In this document: piece by piece, positions 1,064 through 42,806 of the stretch
How the letters are laid out: each line of letters begins with the position of its first letter
Numbering within the stretch: the stretch's first letter is position 1
Source of the DNA: Oligoflexia bacterium
Lineage (GTDB): Bacteria > Bdellovibrionota > UBA1018
Reading direction: 5' to 3'
DNA: 50,835 nt
NCBI GenBank assembly: GCA_903881565.1
Contig: CAIRTR010000022.1
Span: forward strand, 1 to 50,835
Program-made: the position numbers and the translations under genes
The notes under the pieces: model-generated
Database searches by the model: none
Told to the model about the DNA's origin: nothing
Seen by the model: the letters and a program-made list of their open reading frames with translations, nothing else

Positions 1064-1525
1064 ATGGCAAAAAAGAAACTCCTAAAAAGTGCGGAATTCA
1101 AACCCGGTCATGAAAGCCTGGGCCTTGAGAACTATCAGCATCCCGATCAGTTCGGTCGTTGGTTGGGCTATAAACTCATCACGATGGATCGCACCAAGTT
1201 TTCCGCAGAGGTGGAACTCAAGATTCGCGAAGATCATCTTTCCCCTGCGGGACGCGTGCATGGCGGCGTGATCTCGGCCTTCTTTGATTTTGGGTGTGGA
1301 GCGGCTGTATTTTCAACTCTGAGTCCCAGGGATTTTTGCTCGACCGTTGAATTAAAAGTGAACTACTTGCAGCCTTTGGATGTGGGCGACACCCTCAGAG
1401 CGCGCACGAAAGTGATCTTTCGGGGCAAGCGAGTTTGCGTCGTCCACGGGTTCATCTTCCGCAAAGGCGAAAAAAATCCAGTTTCAATGGCGACCGCAAC
1501 ATTCAATGTTGTACCGCAGAAGTAA
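1064..1525 (+). CDS. PaaI-family hotdog thioesterase
   Basis: A 153-residue single-domain hotdog-fold protein, probably a cytoplasmic acyl-CoA thioesterase of the PaaI/YbgC-like class. The core motif HGGVISAFFDFGCG near residue 66 is the conserved HGG...D segment that holds the substrate thioester and catalytic acid in this family. It is followed by the usual VELKVNYLQPLDVGD strand-turn-strand. Length is normal for the family. The start codon sits three bases after the permease stop, which suggests translation from the same transcript. The natural acyl substrate cannot be read from the sequence. Confidence 0.8.
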   Translation: MAKKKLLKSAEFKPGHESLGLENYQHPDQFGRWLGYKLITMDRTKFSAEVELKIREDHLSPAGRVHGGVISAFFDFGCGAAVFSTLSPRDFCSTVELKVNYLQPLDVGDTLRARTKVIFRGKRVCVVHGFIFRKGEKNPVSMATATFNVVPQK

Positions 1526-2381: not shown

Positions 2382-3224
2382 TTAGAACAACTTCGCTACG
2401 ACGGTCACGTTGACTGTCGTGTTAGCGAGCTTTGCGTCGGTTGGATAGATGTTCAGGAAAGGACTTACATTGAATGTATCCGTTACATCGATGCTGACGC
2501 CTGGTTCAAAGTCCATAGGATAGCCTTGAGAAATTGAAGCCAGTCCAAAGCCGCCACCCAGTTTATGAACAGGATATAGTTCATAGAGAGCGGTTAAAGC
2601 AACTTTGGGTGTTAGTTGATAGTTTACGTTTGGACCCCAGTAGCCCAAAAAGTCGGTTGAAGGCTTTCCAGAGGAGCCTACTGCGGCACCTTGAGGACCC
2701 ATCACGTACTGACGAATGTAGCTGACGGAACCTACGGTCAAGCGCGTGCCTGGAATTTCATAGTTCATATTCTGCGTGGTTCTCCAGGCAAAATACTGAT
2801 CTTTGTTGCGGGTGGAGCCGAGCAGTCCTGGATAAACGCGAAGGTCAGTTGCGAGATTGAAGGTTCCCGAGCTAATCAATTTTGAGTGACTCAACTTAAC
2901 AGCAGGGTCAGAGAAGGTGTAGTCGCGCTGAAGGAAGGGTTGTAGAACCACTTCGCCGAAAACTCCGGCGGTGATTTCTGGTGTGATCTTATATCCTGCG
3001 CTCAGAACGGTATCGAGAGTCATGACGCTGTCATCAGGAGCGCGAAGGCTCGCGGGATTATCGACAGAAGGTCCACCTAGAATAATCACGGTGGTCGAAG
3101 TCGTCTTGCTGAGAATGTCAGAAGCGATTGATTGTGCCGAAGATGTCGACGTGTTGGTCTCAGCTGAAGCTGATAGGCTCATCACTGCAGACGCCAATAA
3201 AATTACTCCACCCAGTTTTTTCAT
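2382..3224 (-). CDS. Putative outer-membrane beta-barrel protein
   Basis: A 280-residue exported protein. It has a Sec signal peptide (lysines, then a hydrophobic stretch ending ASA at about residue 21), and a Ser/Thr-rich segment follows. From about residue 65 on, alternating polar and aromatic strands are separated by short turns, and the last residue is Phe (VVAKLF), the usual C-terminal signature for BAM-inserted barrels. No catalytic motif is visible. A good ribosome site (AGGGGGAA) lies before the ATG and a strong terminator follows, so it is a single-gene unit. Family is not recognised; it may be a porin or surface protein. Confidence 0.72.
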   Translation of the reverse strand: MKKLGGVILLASAVMSLSASAETNTSTSSAQSIASDILSKTTSTTVIILGGPSVDNPASLRAPDDSVMTLDTVLSAGYKITPEITAGVFGEVVLQPFLQRDYTFSDPAVKLSHSKLISSGTFNLATDLRVYPGLLGSTRNKDQYFAWRTTQNMNYEIPGTRLTVGSVSYIRQYVMGPQGAAVGSSGKPSTDFLGYWGPNVNYQLTPKVALTALYELYPVHKLGGGFGLASISQGYPMDFEPGVSIDVTDTFNVSPFLNIYPTDAKLANTTVNVTVVAKLF

Positions 3225-3710
3225 TCTTAGTTCCCCCTAAAAGAGTTCGATTAATTGTTACCCTGGCCCCTGTAGCAAGTGGCTTGCCACGCAACAGTTC
3301 TGCCGTTTGCTGAGACGTTTGTCAATGACTGTACGCATTAAGTAGCTAAAAAAGTGCGGGTAATTCTGTACGCGATGCGTCAAGTATTCGCGCGGGGCTC
3401 AGGAGCTTCTTGGGGAAAATGGGTTTCCCCTTGTGGCCCTGGTGCCAAAAAAGGCCTGTGTTTTCTGGGAGCTGGCGGGGTTGTTTTGGGGCCTGGGGCC
3501 TGTAACGTTACGGGTTTGGGGGTGGTCGTGATAGATTTTGAGGCGGTAATGGACTTCAGAACTGCTCAGGTCTTGAAGTCGAATTCGGGATTGCCCCAGT
3601 CTCATGGGCTGCGATTAATCCGATTGATCCAGGGACAAAACGAGTTGTGACTAATGGAGCGATGGTTCTTTGGGATCCCAAACGGCATTTCGAGCGGTTG
3701 CTCGCAGCGC
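3225..3710. other. Intergenic region with no supported gene
   Basis: Nearly 490 bases between two minus-strand genes. The part nearest the barrel gene should hold its promoter. A 98-codon open frame on the plus strand (from 3354) has no family features, is G-rich by composition and lacks a ribosome site, so I do not call it. The only clear structure is the palindromic element at 3498-3514. Confidence 0.5.
3498..3514. repeat. Copy of a palindromic element, core GTAACGTTAC
   Basis: GCCTGTAACGTTACGGG: a ten-base perfect palindrome flanked by CCT and GGG. The same 14 bases GCCTGTAACGTTAC recur inside lolA at 23887-23900, where the palindrome is longer and perfect. Two such matches in 50 kb are more than expected by chance. 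Confidence 0.45.
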
Positions 3711-4643
3711 TTATCTCAAATACCGACTCATGACCCCGCTCCCGTGCGTTAGCAGGGCCGTATGAAGATTATGTGCCTGACAACGTAAGGTCAGGTTCTC
3801 CAGGGTATGCCGGCCGCCCAATGAAAAATCCTGGATATGATGAATCTCGAGGAGATGCCGAGAGCCGCAACGAAGCTGAGTTTCGCCGTTCACATAAGAG
3901 CAATTCCCTTGATCGCGTTTCCATACCGCGCGTCGCAGGGCTTGGGGAATATATCTGCTTTTCTCGTTTGACGGGTCAACTTCCGCCGGCGGAGTGGCGG
4001 GGATGGATTTATCCGCTTTACCTTTTGGCTTTTGCTCTGGATCGAGTCTTTTGAGCGCAAGCTTTGCGAGCATTGTAAACAGCTCCGCATACGAGGGATT
4101 CGGATTGCGATGAGAGAGCAGGGATTTGAGTTTCTCAAACATCTGCATGAGTTCCTCGTCGGCGGTAAATCGGATCTCGGTATGTGTGGCCGAAACCGCG
4201 CGTGAGCGATCCCGCTTCGGAGCTTCCGGAGCTAGGCTCGCTAAATGCACATCACACTCTCTTCGCGACTTGCCCATAACGTTGTTAAGAACCTCTTGCT
4301 TGTCGGCCGCCGAGCGGGGTTTTTCTTCCCTTTTAAAGAAGTGCTGAAGCGCACTTGCATTAGACAGGCTGAGTGTTCCATTCTTCAGTGCAGGCTCAAC
4401 TTCGGGCAAGTCTTTAAGTAGGCGCATGGCCGAAATCCTTCGATCCGCACTGGCTTCGCAATAGCCAAGTCCTCGCCTAACGTAATCAAAAAGCGAGCTA
4501 AATCCCTGCTCGGCGTAAAGGCGGCGGCGCTCTACTTCCCGGAGGTGCCACAACAGTTCGGCCGTGAGTTCGCGCTCGCGGGAAACCAGAATGCGGGTTT
4601 GATTGAGAAGCTCAGAATTGGAAAGGGCAGTGAGATGATTCAT
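3711..4643 (-). CDS. HNH endonuclease-domain protein
   Basis: About 310 residues when started at MNHLTALS; the frame is open 82 codons further up, but that extension is basic, repetitive and lacks homology-like features. The N-terminal 130 residues are helical (ELLWHLREVERRRLYAEQG, GYCEASADRRI), as in multi-copy HNH proteins of Bdellovibrio-like and Leptospira genomes. The C-terminal domain has RYIPQALRRAVWKRDQGNC, then CGS, then LEIHHIQDFSLGG and ENLTLRCQAHN, which supply the paired His, the Asn and the metal-binding cysteines of an HNH nuclease. The linker is Lys/Pro rich. The target is unknown, and a role in DNA restriction or a selfish element is possible. No partner gene is adjacent. Confidence 0.8.
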   Translation of the reverse strand: MNHLTALSNSELLNQTRILVSRERELTAELLWHLREVERRRLYAEQGFSSLFDYVRRGLGYCEASADRRISAMRLLKDLPEVEPALKNGTLSLSNASALQHFFKREEKPRSAADKQEVLNNVMGKSRRECDVHLASLAPEAPKRDRSRAVSATHTEIRFTADEELMQMFEKLKSLLSHRNPNPSYAELFTMLAKLALKRLDPEQKPKGKADKSIPATPPAEVDPSNEKSRYIPQALRRAVWKRDQGNCSYVNGETQLRCGSRHLLEIHHIQDFSLGGRHTLENLTLRCQAHNLHTALLTHGSGVMSRYLR

Positions 4644-38414: not shown

Positions 38415-40250
38415 TTAGTTTTGCTGCGAAAGAGTGAGGCTCTTACAGCCCTCAATCCATTCGGATGCATTTTGAGCTTTTCGAAGACTTATTGCCAGAT
38501 TCTCGGCAATAATAGCGGCGGCTGTGTTCCTGGTTTTGAGGTAATTCGCCGCCCCTTCGTATGCCCTTGAAAAAAGCCAGAATCTGTATCGGCCGAAGAT
38601 CATGCCGTTTGATGGTAGCGGTTGAAGTTTGGATACTGTTGCACAAAGCTCAAGAGCGCGATTTAGGGTGTTCTTGTTGAAATCCTCTTTTACGCCATTT
38701 CCCGTTACAAAGACTAGTCCCTCAAGTCTCGCTCTTCTCTTAGTTTTACTTTGCATGTCGGAGACGTTCAACAACATAGGATTGATAGCCGCGACCTCCA
38801 AGCCATTGGAGATTGCTGTGGCAACATAGTCTTCGATAGGCGCAGCACTATTCTTTAGTGCTGCCAAACGAGGCTCTAAACTGGGTAAAATCTTTTTTAC
38901 GTACCATGGTGCTTCCGTCATTCGTGCTACTGGAAAACGAATATCTCCGTTGCGAGTTTTGAGACCGTAGAAAGTGTCGTCATCTGTTGAGCCTATATAA
39001 ACTGAATTGGGTGGCACCGAGATAGCAAGTCCCTCTCGAAGGACCTCTAAAGTTGTATCCCGAGAAGCGTTAGCTTGGTCTTTTCCTGAAAAAAACCACA
39101 ATACAATAAGAGTCACGGCCACCGCTGTTTTAAAATAGTGCCCCCAAAGGGAAGGTGGTGTCTCTTCTAATAATCGGTTCAAGCCGATCCCAAACAGGAT
39201 CGTCAAGGAAAGCAATAGGGTCCCCGAAAACCGTTCTAGGTATGCCGGAGTTAAGAAGGATGGGGAAAGGTTGGAAACCAATAAAAAAATTGTCGAAAAA
39301 AGCAGAGTCAAGATAATGCTTTTTTCGAAAACCGAGGCTTTGCTAACTTGCTTCAAGATGTGAAATAGACCAAGAAGCGGAAAAATTAGCGTCGCACTCC
39401 AGGTATCGAGCAGCTGCGTTCCTGTTACGGTGAGTGCATTCTGTGAAAGCCCATTTGGAACTGCGCCCAGAGAAAAAATACCAAATTCAGCACGTGTGAT
39501 GTGAGAAATTAGAGCTGAAATCGAATCGAGTTGTCCCCAGTTTGGCCAGCCAGCTTGGCTGTTTAGTAAGTGGAGTGATAGGTACCCAAGTGAAGTGATA
39601 GTTCCAACTATGGTGGCCGAAAGTACTGTGTTCTTGAGCACGCTTAAGAATGAGTGACTACGAGTGAAGAGTTGTGAAACAAGATATGGAGAAGTGATAA
39701 GACAAATGGGGTGCTGAATTGTCGCAAGTCCAAAAAGGATGGAGGCGGTAGTGATTCTTTTCCTCCCTTGCGTATCGTCTATTTTAGCGAAGTTCGTTCT
39801 CGAGCATTTCCATTGCAAGAGGGCCATCAAAAGGTAGGACAAAGCAAAGACTTCTGGTTGAACGCCAAGGTACCAAATGGGGGGGAAAAAGGCGTAAGCA
39901 AAACTTGCGCAACAAATGGAGATTGCCTTTAGTCTCATTTGTCTCATCGTTTCTGCAAGGGCGATCACAGTTCCAGAATGAGCCAATAATGAAAGGAGTG
40001 ATAATCTCCATGCGGGGGTGCCAATATAGAGTTTTTGAAACATTAGATTTATCCAGGCCTGTAAGGGAAATCCTGGTGGGTGAGGTACTCCGCCGCTTTG
40101 AGATAGTAAAACAAATTCAGCGCCGTCCCCACTTTGGGCTACCGTTGCGAGCATATTCAAAGAAAGTAGAAATACAGTGAGTCCGCAGAAGAGAGAGATC
40201 GCCGCAGATCCATGTTTGCAAGAGAAAATTGCCCTAAAGCATTTTTGCAT
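38415..40250 (-). CDS. DUF2723-type membrane glycosyltransferase
   Basis: 611 residues with about eleven hydrophobic helices. The DUF2723 mark is in the first periplasmic loop: GDGAEFVLLSQSGG followed by VPHPPGFPL. It resembles GT-C protein O-mannosyltransferases that use polyprenyl-linked sugars. The C-terminal 200 residues are soluble. It converges on dapB with four bases between. The start overlaps the end of the next upstream gene by 17 bases, so the two form an operon. AT-richer than dapAB. The sugar acceptor is unknown. Confidence 0.8.
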   Translation of the reverse strand: MQKCFRAIFSCKHGSAAISLFCGLTVFLLSLNMLATVAQSGDGAEFVLLSQSGGVPHPPGFPLQAWINLMFQKLYIGTPAWRLSLLSLLAHSGTVIALAETMRQMRLKAISICCASFAYAFFPPIWYLGVQPEVFALSYLLMALLQWKCSRTNFAKIDDTQGRKRITTASILFGLATIQHPICLITSPYLVSQLFTRSHSFLSVLKNTVLSATIVGTITSLGYLSLHLLNSQAGWPNWGQLDSISALISHITRAEFGIFSLGAVPNGLSQNALTVTGTQLLDTWSATLIFPLLGLFHILKQVSKASVFEKSIILTLLFSTIFLLVSNLSPSFLTPAYLERFSGTLLLSLTILFGIGLNRLLEETPPSLWGHYFKTAVAVTLIVLWFFSGKDQANASRDTTLEVLREGLAISVPPNSVYIGSTDDDTFYGLKTRNGDIRFPVARMTEAPWYVKKILPSLEPRLAALKNSAAPIEDYVATAISNGLEVAAINPMLLNVSDMQSKTKRRARLEGLVFVTGNGVKEDFNKNTLNRALELCATVSKLQPLPSNGMIFGRYRFWLFSRAYEGAANYLKTRNTAAAIIAENLAISLRKAQNASEWIEGCKSLTLSQQN

Positions 40251-40884
40251 CTTGGTTCTTTAGTTTTGTCAAAAAAAGAAGGTATACAGGTTCCAAGTTT
40301 TCAAAATAGTCGTTTGAATTCTGAAAGCTGGAAGCAAAGGAAATTGATATATTCGTCCACTCTTTAATAATCGGCCCAAGCTGCTGCTCAAGAATTTCTT
40401 CATTCACTTCAATCTGGATTCTCGCATTGCTGATGGCTGCGTTTGTTTCGTGTGCAAGTTCCAAAAAAAAATGAAGAAGCCTGCTGTGCTCCTTCTCGTT
40501 CCGAGGGAGAATGCTGATTTCTCTTTGTCTATATTCAATTAGGGTTTGTTCGGATTTATCAAAATACTCTGGATGACCCTGACAGCTTGAGAATGTGATG
40601 CAATGAAGATCATTAACGATGCAAATAACGAGGTCCTTAATTTTTGTTTCAATCGAGTCAAAAAAGTTAGGATGATGTTTTGTAAAAAGCGTTGCCTCCG
40701 CACAGCTTGCTTTTCCCAAAACATTGATATTGCCTAAATGACTCTCTCTTAGATTTGAAGCACTATTGTTAGAATGAGGTTCGATAGGCGGCTTGTCCCA
40801 CTCTTTGATAAATTCCGCTAAATCTTTACCTTTGATTCGATTGATGAGCATTTTTAGGTCTTTCTCGTTCTGCGGTTTTGACAA
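40234..40884 (-). CDS. Unknown cytoplasmic protein
   Basis: 216 residues, helical and charged, without signal peptide or membrane segment. A Cys/His-rich core, LHCITFSSCQGHPEYF near residue 100, could bind a metal or be an active site. It overlaps the DUF2723 gene by 17 bases and is divergent from the repeat-peptide gene, 268 bases away. Low GC like the RiPP genes. I do not recognise its family. Confidence 0.58.
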   Translation of the reverse strand: MSKPQNEKDLKMLINRIKGKDLAEFIKEWDKPPIEPHSNNSASNLRESHLGNINVLGKASCAEATLFTKHHPNFFDSIETKIKDLVICIVNDLHCITFSSCQGHPEYFDKSEQTLIEYRQREISILPRNEKEHSRLLHFFLELAHETNAAISNARIQIEVNEEILEQQLGPIIKEWTNISISFASSFQNSNDYFENLEPVYLLFLTKLKNQDAKML

Positions 40885-41152
40885 ACATTCATAATATAAG
40901 TTTAATTTACGGATGGGGATTGATCAATGGGGTTTGATTTGAGCTTCTAGTGTGGTGTCAAGGAGATGACGGCCGGCCGAATTGGACGCGTGGTGAAGCG
41001 ACAACGCTGACTGGGATTGTGGTCATTCTTGACACATTGTTTTTCTATATTAGTCATGAGATTATGTTGAAATAGTGAGTTGCGGGTGGTGGTGGCAGCC
41101 CTGTTTAGCCGCTAATGGATTCAAAAGAAACAAAGAGGGGAACTAAATTTTT

Positions 41153-41626
41153 ATGAAAAAAAACTATTCGAAAGTTGCGGGTGGGGTGTTTGTTTTGTCA
41201 GTTCTTGCGACTGCAGCACCATTGCTGGTCGAGGGAAAAATTAGTGCAGCTTTGGCTAAGCTAGGAGTCAAAGAGGCTATCGCGGCACAGCCAGGACAGA
41301 TCCCAGCTGCCAGTAAGAAGGCCATCGTGGATCCGGATCGAGGAAGTAAGGGCACTGGGAAGTTGGCTCCGGTTGCTGACACAGATCTTGGAACAACCCA
41401 TATTCGCGTTAAGGCTGGCAAGGTGGACAAGTTGGCTCCGGTTGCTGACACAGATCTTGGAACGACCCACATTCGCGTTAAGGGTGGTATGGTGGACAAG
41501 TTGGCTCCGATTGCTGACGGCGATCTTGGAACAACCCACATTCGCGTTAAGGGCAAGGAAGACAAACAAGGTTTAGTTGAGAAGGTAATGCTTAAGGGAG
41601 TTAGTGGAAAAGCTGTATCAAAATAA
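41153..41626 (+). CDS. Repeat-containing precursor peptide for the radical SAM maturase (RiPP candidate)
   Basis: 157 residues. N-terminal lysines followed by a hydrophobic stretch (VAGGVFVLSVLATAAPLLV) look like a signal or membrane segment. A Lys/Ala-rich middle leads to three near-identical 23-residue units (residues 70-92, 93-115, 116-138), each with KLAPxAD, then DLGTTHIRVK. The tail is basic. The first units differ at only a few residues, so the repeats are young or under tight selection. A Rho-independent terminator and then a SPASM maturase follow directly, the standard layout of radical SAM RiPP loci. THIR or HIR in each unit may be the cross-linked site, as in three-residue cyclophanes; this is inference. 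GAGGGG lies about 12 bases before the ATG. Confidence 0.72.
   Translation: MKKNYSKVAGGVFVLSVLATAAPLLVEGKISAALAKLGVKEAIAAQPGQIPAASKKAIVDPDRGSKGTGKLAPVADTDLGTTHIRVKAGKVDKLAPVADTDLGTTHIRVKGGMVDKLAPIADGDLGTTHIRVKGKEDKQGLVEKVMLKGVSGKAVSK
41360..41566 (+). repeat. Three tandem 69-base repeats in the precursor gene
   Basis: Units at 41360-41428, 41429-41497 and 41498-41566. Units 1 and 2 are almost identical at the DNA level (differences mainly near the AGK/GGM junction), and unit 3 differs at a few more sites. Each encodes one putative core peptide. Confidence 0.92.
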
Positions 41627-41652
41627 TTTGTTCAGTTCCGGTTTTTTTGATT

Positions 41653-41694
41653 CCCCCCTGAATGACTTAGATGGCATTCGGGGGGTTTTGTTTT
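41653..41694 (+). terminator. Terminator between precursor and maturase genes
   Basis: CCCCCC(T)GAATG pairs with CATTCGGGGGG over a ten-base loop, followed by TTTTGTTTT. It starts 26 bases after the precursor stop. Partial read-through would give much precursor and little maturase, which is usual in RiPP operons. Confidence 0.87.
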
Positions 41695-41729
41695 GAGCAA
41701 TACAAGTCTTGATATTGGGAGATGCTGAA

Positions 41730-42806
41730 ATGGATTTCGTGCTAAAAGTTAGCAAGTTATGCAATATGAGGTGTGAATATTGTTACGAACACAAAAACCT
41801 GGAGAGCAAGGATCAGATTTCGTTGAGTCAGTTTGATGCATTTTTCAAGTCTCTTGGCTCTTGGGTTGAAGAGAGAAACATCACTGAGCGCATTTGGTTG
41901 GGTTTTCATGGCGGTGAGCCTTTGCTGAATTCTTTAGATTATCTTGAAGGGGTTTGCTCTCTTGCTGATAAATATCTTGGCGAAAAATCTATTAATTATG
42001 CGTTTTCAATGCAGACAAATCTTACCCGCTACAATAAGGATATTTGCGATTTTTTGAAACGGCGAATTACCACCTTAGGGGTTTCCTTTGATCCTGCGTG
42101 CAGCTTGAGGAAATCCGTTTCGGGCGGTGATACTTATGATTTGGTTTTGAACAATATCGAGGCCGCGCTCGCCGATAAGCTCAATTTTGGCGCCATTACG
42201 GTGCTGAGTGCAAAAAATTTGGACAAGATTAAGGAGATTTACGACTTCTGGGTAAGTCGCGATGTTCCTTTTCGTCTTCTCCCTGTTTCTGCCACAGATA
42301 ATGAGACCCAAGAGCGAATCCAGCATTTGATGTTGAAGGCAGAAGATGTGTTGATGGCTTTTCGAACTTTGGGAGATCTTTGGCTCGAGACGGATACCGA
42401 TCTAGAAATAGATCCTGTCGCGGGCTATTTTCGATCGGCAATTGCCTACATAAAAGGGATCAAGGTTCCTCCTGTTGATCTTTCTAAGAATGAAAGAGTC
42501 CACTACGTTGATACGGATGGGAAGATGTACAATTATGCGGATCATTATACTGATGCAGGTTACCTTGGTGACGCTTTCAAGGATTCCCTAGCGACAATTC
42601 TGGATTCAAATCAAAGGAAAGCCAGTGTTCATCTTCAAATGAAAGATACAAAGACTTGTGAAACCTGTCCTTTTAAAGAGGCTTGCAATCACTCTCCTCT
42701 TATTGAAATTAATCCGACGGAGCGCGTGGTGGATGAGGATGGCGAGGCAATTTGCTGGGCAGCAAGACCGATGATTGATTATTTTGTTAGGCGACTTTCT
42801 GGCTGA
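41730..42806 (+). CDS. Radical SAM/SPASM peptide maturase
   Basis: 358 residues from the ATG with a GGGAG ribosome site eight bases upstream; a TTG 21 bases earlier is a weaker start. The radical SAM cluster motif is Cys11-x3-Cys15-x2-Cys18 (CNMRCEYC), followed by GGEP (FHGGEPLL). The SPASM domain at the C-terminus has Cys310, Cys313, Cys319 and Cys342 (CETCPFKEACNHS; CWAARP), a layout as in anSME-like sulfatase and RiPP maturases. No sulfatase gene is near, and a repeat peptide is directly upstream, so it probably modifies that peptide (carbon-carbon, ether or thioether cross-link not predictable). Confidence 0.92.
   Translation: MDFVLKVSKLCNMRCEYCYEHKNLESKDQISLSQFDAFFKSLGSWVEERNITERIWLGFHGGEPLLNSLDYLEGVCSLADKYLGEKSINYAFSMQTNLTRYNKDICDFLKRRITTLGVSFDPACSLRKSVSGGDTYDLVLNNIEAALADKLNFGAITVLSAKNLDKIKEIYDFWVSRDVPFRLLPVSATDNETQERIQHLMLKAEDVLMAFRTLGDLWLETDTDLEIDPVAGYFRSAIAYIKGIKVPPVDLSKNERVHYVDTDGKMYNYADHYTDAGYLGDAFKDSLATILDSNQRKASVHLQMKDTKTCETCPFKEACNHSPLIEINPTERVVDEDGEAICWAARPMIDYFVRRLSG

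Follow-up and report, generated by a model that had tools for sequence, protein, structure and literature searches.

A short ORF with internal repeats, followed on the same strand by a gene for a radical SAM enzyme, raised the question of whether the two genes form a RiPP locus and, if so, which residues the enzyme would modify. The genes lie on contig CAIRTR010000022.1 of an Oligoflexia bacterium, of which the whole stretch of 50,835 nt was analyzed; this stretch is called the window here. The features of the locus are listed in Table 1.

Table 1. Features of the two-gene locus, in positions of the window.
Feature	Positions	Strand	Basis
RBS-like GAGGGG, precursor gene	41135..41140	+	sequence
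Precursor peptide gene, 157 aa	41153..41626	+	ORF and repeats; no Pfam/NCBIfam family
Leader: lysine-rich start, hydrophobic segment (residues about 8-26), helix-like ISAALAKLGVKEAIAA, linker	41153..41359	+	sequence
Core unit 1 KLAPVADTDLGTTHIRVKAGKVD, HIR codons 41399-41407	41360..41428	+	tandem-repeat register
Core unit 2 KLAPVADTDLGTTHIRVKGGMVD, HIR codons 41468-41476	41429..41497	+	tandem-repeat register
Core unit 3 KLAPIADGDLGTTHIRVKGKEDK, HIR codons 41537-41545	41498..41566	+	tandem-repeat register
Attenuator/terminator-like hairpin (stem 41654-41685) and T-rich tract	41654..41695	+	predicted fold
RBS-like GGGAG, maturase gene	41717..41721	+	sequence
Radical SAM maturase, 358 aa from ATG 41730 (ORF also opens at TTG 41709)	41730..42806	+	PF04055, family alignment, AF2 model
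CxxxCxxC radical SAM cluster motif (C18, C22, C25, numbered from TTG 41709)	41760..41783	+	invariant in 43 aligned members
Cysteines C317, C320, C326, and C349 of the one auxiliary cluster	42657..42755	+	invariant in 43 members; ChlB alignment

The repeat precursor and its surroundings

The original prediction had described a precursor with three units, each with an identical DLGTTHIRVK, preceded by a leader with a hydrophobic segment and followed by a terminator. All of these elements were recovered. The ORF comprises three 69-nt tandem units in register, of which copies 2 and 3 are 93% and 77% identical to the first. Such an in-register triple repeat cannot have arisen by chance. DLGTTHIRVK was invariant in all three units. 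The changes inside the decapeptide (unit codons 12 and 14) are all synonymous, while the differences at most of the flanking unit codons 19-23 change the residue, and in this sample of three copies the pattern fits a constraint on DLGTTHIRVK. His is the sole aromatic residue of the core (His83, His106, and His129; otherwise the precursor contains Phe13 alone), and each His begins an H-I-R triplet with Arg at +2. Cys is absent from the precursor, which rules out thioether RiPPs; the core Cys of sactipeptides and ranthipeptides is thus missing. The leader appears signal-peptide-like, as judged by eye only.

The terminator between the genes was found as an attenuator-like hairpin of -22.7 kcal/mol (z -2.9) with the T-rich tract 3' of the stem. 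Eight of the 13 precursor-maturase gaps tested in the enzyme family, the window among them, had z values below -2, and the hairpin sequences were unrelated. Recurrent hairpins at this place are expected if the precursor must exceed the enzyme.

Neither Pfam nor NCBIfam contains a family that matched the precursor. It had no homologue in the 368 other genomes of the window's phylum and no match in a single-sequence scan of viral contigs. No transporter or protease gene was seen beside the pair. The flanking genes encode a TMEM260-like membrane protein, a 216-aa ORF, and electron-transfer flavoproteins; the 216-aa ORF (40234-40884, minus strand) is divergent from the precursor gene and has no Pfam or NCBIfam match. 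The hydrophobic leader, the repeats, and the lack of a local transporter or protease would also suit an exported structural or adhesive protein, with the adjoining radical SAM enzyme acting on something else. We regard this as highly improbable, because across phyla the members of the enzyme family lie directly downstream of short precursor-like ORFs. By the original prediction, repeat-protein homologues without the maturase would speak against a RiPP locus; a search for them that covered 369 genomes from the phylum was negative.

The maturase and its family

The maturase probably starts at ATG 41730 and not at TTG 41709, because an RBS is present and the start agrees with those of the homologues. 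It had been described as a radical SAM/SPASM enzyme. The radical SAM assignment held (PF04055 at 2e-11). The SPASM label was half true, because the cysteines of the first auxiliary cluster are absent: the enzyme has four auxiliary cysteines only, not the two clusters of SPASM, and its C-terminal SPASM-like region scored 15.2 with PF13186, below the gathering cut-off of 21.5.

No NCBIfam model claims the maturase. Its best score was reached with DynA (129.5 bits, cut-off 450), which was also the top-scoring model for most of the relatives tested, and the sulfatase maturase model gave 119 bits (cut-off 349). The triceptide maturase models that are present in NCBIfam scored 40-76 bits, far below their cut-offs (GrrM/OscB 76.1 and 310, YhhB 66.3 and 445, FxsB 57.2 and 370, XyeB 39.8 and 450), and AmcB gave 69.8 bits (cut-off 425).

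Across 43 aligned family members, the three radical SAM cysteines and C317, C320, C326, and C349 are invariant, and no others are. The family lacks the cysteines by which the anaerobic sulfatase maturase binds its first auxiliary cluster. The remaining C-x2-C-x5-C with a distal C is the half-SPASM pattern of ChlB (PDB 9gm3, 9gmc), which in the profile alignment likewise lacks the auxiliary-I cysteines and keeps the four-cysteine cluster. An AlphaFold2 model of the maturase (pLDDT 92) had its best fold matches in ChlB (TM 0.77) and the anaerobic sulfatase maturase (TM 0.76), and the profile match to ChlB extended over the whole length (94 bits, about 18% identity). The solved ChlB is named a multiple-cyclophane synthase in the reference list of PMC12636437, where it is also described as fused to an HExxH hydroxylase domain; the window enzyme has no such domain. 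DynA and the anaerobic sulfatase maturase (4k36-4k39) were the best curated models and structural or profile matches, although the window enzyme stayed below the model cut-offs. The anaerobic sulfatase maturase keeps both auxiliary clusters, while the window enzyme has one. Sulfatase maturase makes formylglycine; it performs no cross-linking and does not act on repeats.

A single-sequence scan of the genome collection with the maturase gave no matches, and neither a second family member nor a second precursor was found in the 368 other genomes of the phylum (369 genomes covered). The nearest enzymes of the phylum belong to other families (21-27% identity over the alignment) and were dropped as kin: they comprise the PapB-like L022 and L028, a true GrrM (L023), a sulfatase maturase (L030), and a CbpB (L024). 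The first full-length relative, 30% identical, was found on IMG/VR contig L049, and its comparison with the window enzyme led to the pattern K[LF]CNxRCxYCYE. Within IMG/VR the pattern occurred on two contigs only, L049 and L139, both with family members. It occurred at 48 loci in 84,980 genomes, several of them incomplete at the ends of the stored DNA, and all encode relatives that can be aligned to the window enzyme, with E values as low as 8e-85 among the full-length proteins. Whole-genome searches added further cyanobacterial members, present in 8 of the 340 genomes searched in the class; among 301 genomes around a Pedobacter member, 2 had a family enzyme, the query's own included. About 50 relatives, most of them 26-36% identical, were obtained in total, from Cyanobacteriota, Actinomycetota, Pseudomonadota, Myxococcota, Acidobacteriota, Bacteroidota, Verrucomicrobiota, and the two IMG/VR contigs. 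The distribution is sparse and patchy. The window enzyme, on a long branch, groups with one Bradyrhizobium and five cyanobacterial enzymes (support 99/96).

Other searches were discarded. Generic radical SAM patterns returned unrelated enzymes among the matches listed, and most matches of one viral search were of that kind; CxxCx[FY]KxACxxxPL matched mostly by chance; the plasmid matches, at about 25%, were all sulfatase-maturase-like or other radical SAM enzymes.

On L049 (IMGVR_UViG_3300043270_000050), an 88.8-kb contig classed as viral, the family maturase lies at 2708-4137 with a likely precursor just upstream; a weak RuvC-like match and a PHROG of unknown function nearby give some support to a phage origin. 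The member on L139 (IMGVR_UViG_3300035000_000007) is preceded by a Nif11-like, double-glycine precursor. Within the window's phylum, L023 carries a true GrrM-type triceptide system (2260-2583 and 964-2184, both minus strand) with many WxN/WxD motifs; it has a signal-like leader and repeats as in the window, and its GrrM shares the single auxiliary-cluster pattern with the window enzyme. Directly upstream of the PapB-like radical SAM enzyme of L022 lies a 43-residue W-N-rich ORF (1221-1352, plus strand; WNNFWSNTWRNNWDNCWMNCWRNC), a possible unrelated RiPP.

Upstream ORFs of the relatives and the +2 position

Nearly every family member, across phyla, has a short precursor-like ORF just upstream. 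These ORFs are very diverse. Some have signal-like leaders and others leaders of the Nif11 type (confirmed for L146 by PF07862); repeats at the C-terminus or an additional beta-rich domain also occur. None of the seven tested matched NCBIfam. When the window was excluded, 22 of the 25 Trp residues (0.88) in its sister clade were followed at +2 by a residue of the set D, E, N, Q, R, and K, against 0.40 on average in shuffles; examples are WTQ, WGQ, WNR, WGE, WLR, WDQ, WSR, and WER. The polar or charged fraction at neighboring offsets was 0.16-0.52, with no comparable excess. With about one precursor per clade, 63 of 94 Trp or Phe residues (0.67) had a polar or charged residue at +2, compared with 0.27-0.45 at other offsets; the same measure in the maturase proteins themselves was 0.33. 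In both sets 0 of 5000 shuffles reached the observed value, counts that overstate the certainty because the ORFs were picked by eye and related sequences are not fully independent; the offset control is unaffected by this. Judged by its sequence, H-I-R of the window fits the +2 rule of the family, with His as the aromatic residue. Among the precursors examined, H-I-R repeats occurred in the window only, and the sisters use Trp.

Two other kinds of RiPP were weighed against these data. The first has a His-Arg link of other topology or chemistry, for example from an imidazole nitrogen to C-beta or from the ring to an Arg nitrogen. In dynobactin, a C-N link joins C-beta of Tyr to the imidazole nitrogen of a His two residues apart (PMC11002830), and the top rank of DynA among the models points in the same direction. 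Among the chemical alternatives, a nitrogen link like that of dynobactin is the foremost. We consider a link of this kind unlikely, because the score is far below the DynA cut-off and because Trp or Phe at the first position in most relatives suits carbon-carbon arylation. The second involves a change other than a cross-link elsewhere in the unit, such as epimerization, hydroxylation, desaturation of Val or Ile of the cyclopropylglycine type, or chemistry at Asp or Thr. Radical SAM/SPASM enzymes perform such chemistry, TvgB acting on TVGG repeats (PMC9062424), and the conserved decapeptide offers other candidate residues. The family-wide i,i+2 aromatic signature and the ChlB-like single auxiliary cluster speak against it and make it quite unlikely.

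A by-eye likeness of the window leader to the cyanobacterial leaders was rejected. A model of eight cyanobacterial leaders scored the window leader at -0.8 bits, no better than shuffles, and had no match in the window's genome. The core look-alike of DLGTTHIRVK in the cyanobacterial precursor L195 (840-1388, plus strand), DVGTHHIAIA, where KDVGTHHIAIADQ resembles TDLGTTHIRVKAG of the window, lacks the Arg; it was the best among all precursors with borderline significance (0.005 by shuffles), and the 16-residue unit was not significant. TTHIK in the Pedobacter precursor L176, spotted by eye, was unranked in this test.

The sister-clade precursors L160, L161, L177, L182, L186, L195, and L198-L201 contain an extra domain, DGxYxLxxGxxLxVxxGxV, between leader and W-x-x core; it is doubled in some, and the one tested had no Pfam match. 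At the Nif11-type cyanobacterial loci L146, L159, and L204, a second conserved gene (MxLHLDSWD...RNRICINLGRE), possibly an oxygenase, or a fusion with it was present.

Predicted product and its place among cyclophane peptides

The bond made by three-residue cyclophane enzymes runs from an aromatic ring to the C-beta two residues on (i+2), and in the His-x-Arg cyclophane of YhhB C2 of His is bonded to C-beta of Arg (PMC11002830). In triceptide/3-CyFE systems (XyeB, GrrM/OscB, FxsB, YxdB, HaaB, and YhhB) the radical SAM enzyme is encoded beside a repeat precursor with aromatic-x-x. The window likewise has a CxxxCxxC enzyme adjoining a precursor with a repeated aromatic(i)-x-(i+2) motif, and its predicted site is His-Ile-Arg where YhhB has His-x-Arg. 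H-N-R repeats are listed for an uncharacterized cluster (PMC9062424).

The coherent family, the +2 signature, and the ChlB-like cluster pattern and fold favor the RiPP locus with H-I-R as the aromatic-x-x site that had been predicted. We think it likely that the two genes are a RiPP cassette of the three-residue-cyclophane (triceptide-like) kind. Against this stand the long branch of the window enzyme and the single occurrence of H-I-R repeats among the precursors examined, the lack of sequence homology between the window leader and the sister leaders, and the top NCBIfam models, which are DynA and sulfatase maturase and not those of triceptides; aromatic spacing alone does not prove cross-links.

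Because of the YhhB precedent and of H-I-R together with the +2 rule, one His-Arg cyclophane per unit is the most likely reaction, and the product is most likely a triceptide-like peptide with three such cyclophanes. The hairpin would keep the precursor transcript above that of the maturase, which would recognize the leader and visit the units one after another. A 5'-deoxyadenosyl radical would abstract the beta-hydrogen of Arg, the Arg carbon radical would bond to C2 of the His imidazole as in YhhB, and the auxiliary cluster would accept the electron. The expected mass change would be -2 Da per unit and -6 Da per peptide, a value by which C-C and C-N links cannot be distinguished. Given its hydrophobic leader and the absence of a transporter gene nearby, the peptide may be exported by the general Sec route, and the processing protease would be encoded elsewhere.

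The original prediction knew of no described RiPP family with this core. This holds for the models searched, none of which matched the repeat core, but with YhhB as a known maker of His-x-Arg cyclophanes, the chemistry in the window would have a precedent. Systems of this kind are known; NCBIfam does not contain the maturase family. Unlike in described triceptides, the third position in the family is mainly Q, E, D, R, or K, and the window uses His as its only aromatic residue. The partner residues Q, E, and K exceed those described in the literature compared, to which the primary triceptide papers did not belong, and part of the family may have an earlier description. We tentatively suggest that the family could consist of distinct cyclophane synthases linking Trp, Phe, or His to Gln, Glu, Asp, Lys, or Arg at +2, with partners partly outside the described set, and that the window could represent a His-only branch with three identical His-Arg cyclophanes.

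About 50 radical SAM maturases of at least seven phyla and two IMG/VR contigs thus form an unmodelled family, in which diverse leaders are combined with one core spacing rule. They offer test cases for one enzyme family reading a two-residue spacing with different aromatic residues, and for cross-links to Glu, Gln, or Lys. The window provides a compact substrate with three sites, one candidate in each unit, which suits mass spectrometry and the question of processivity.
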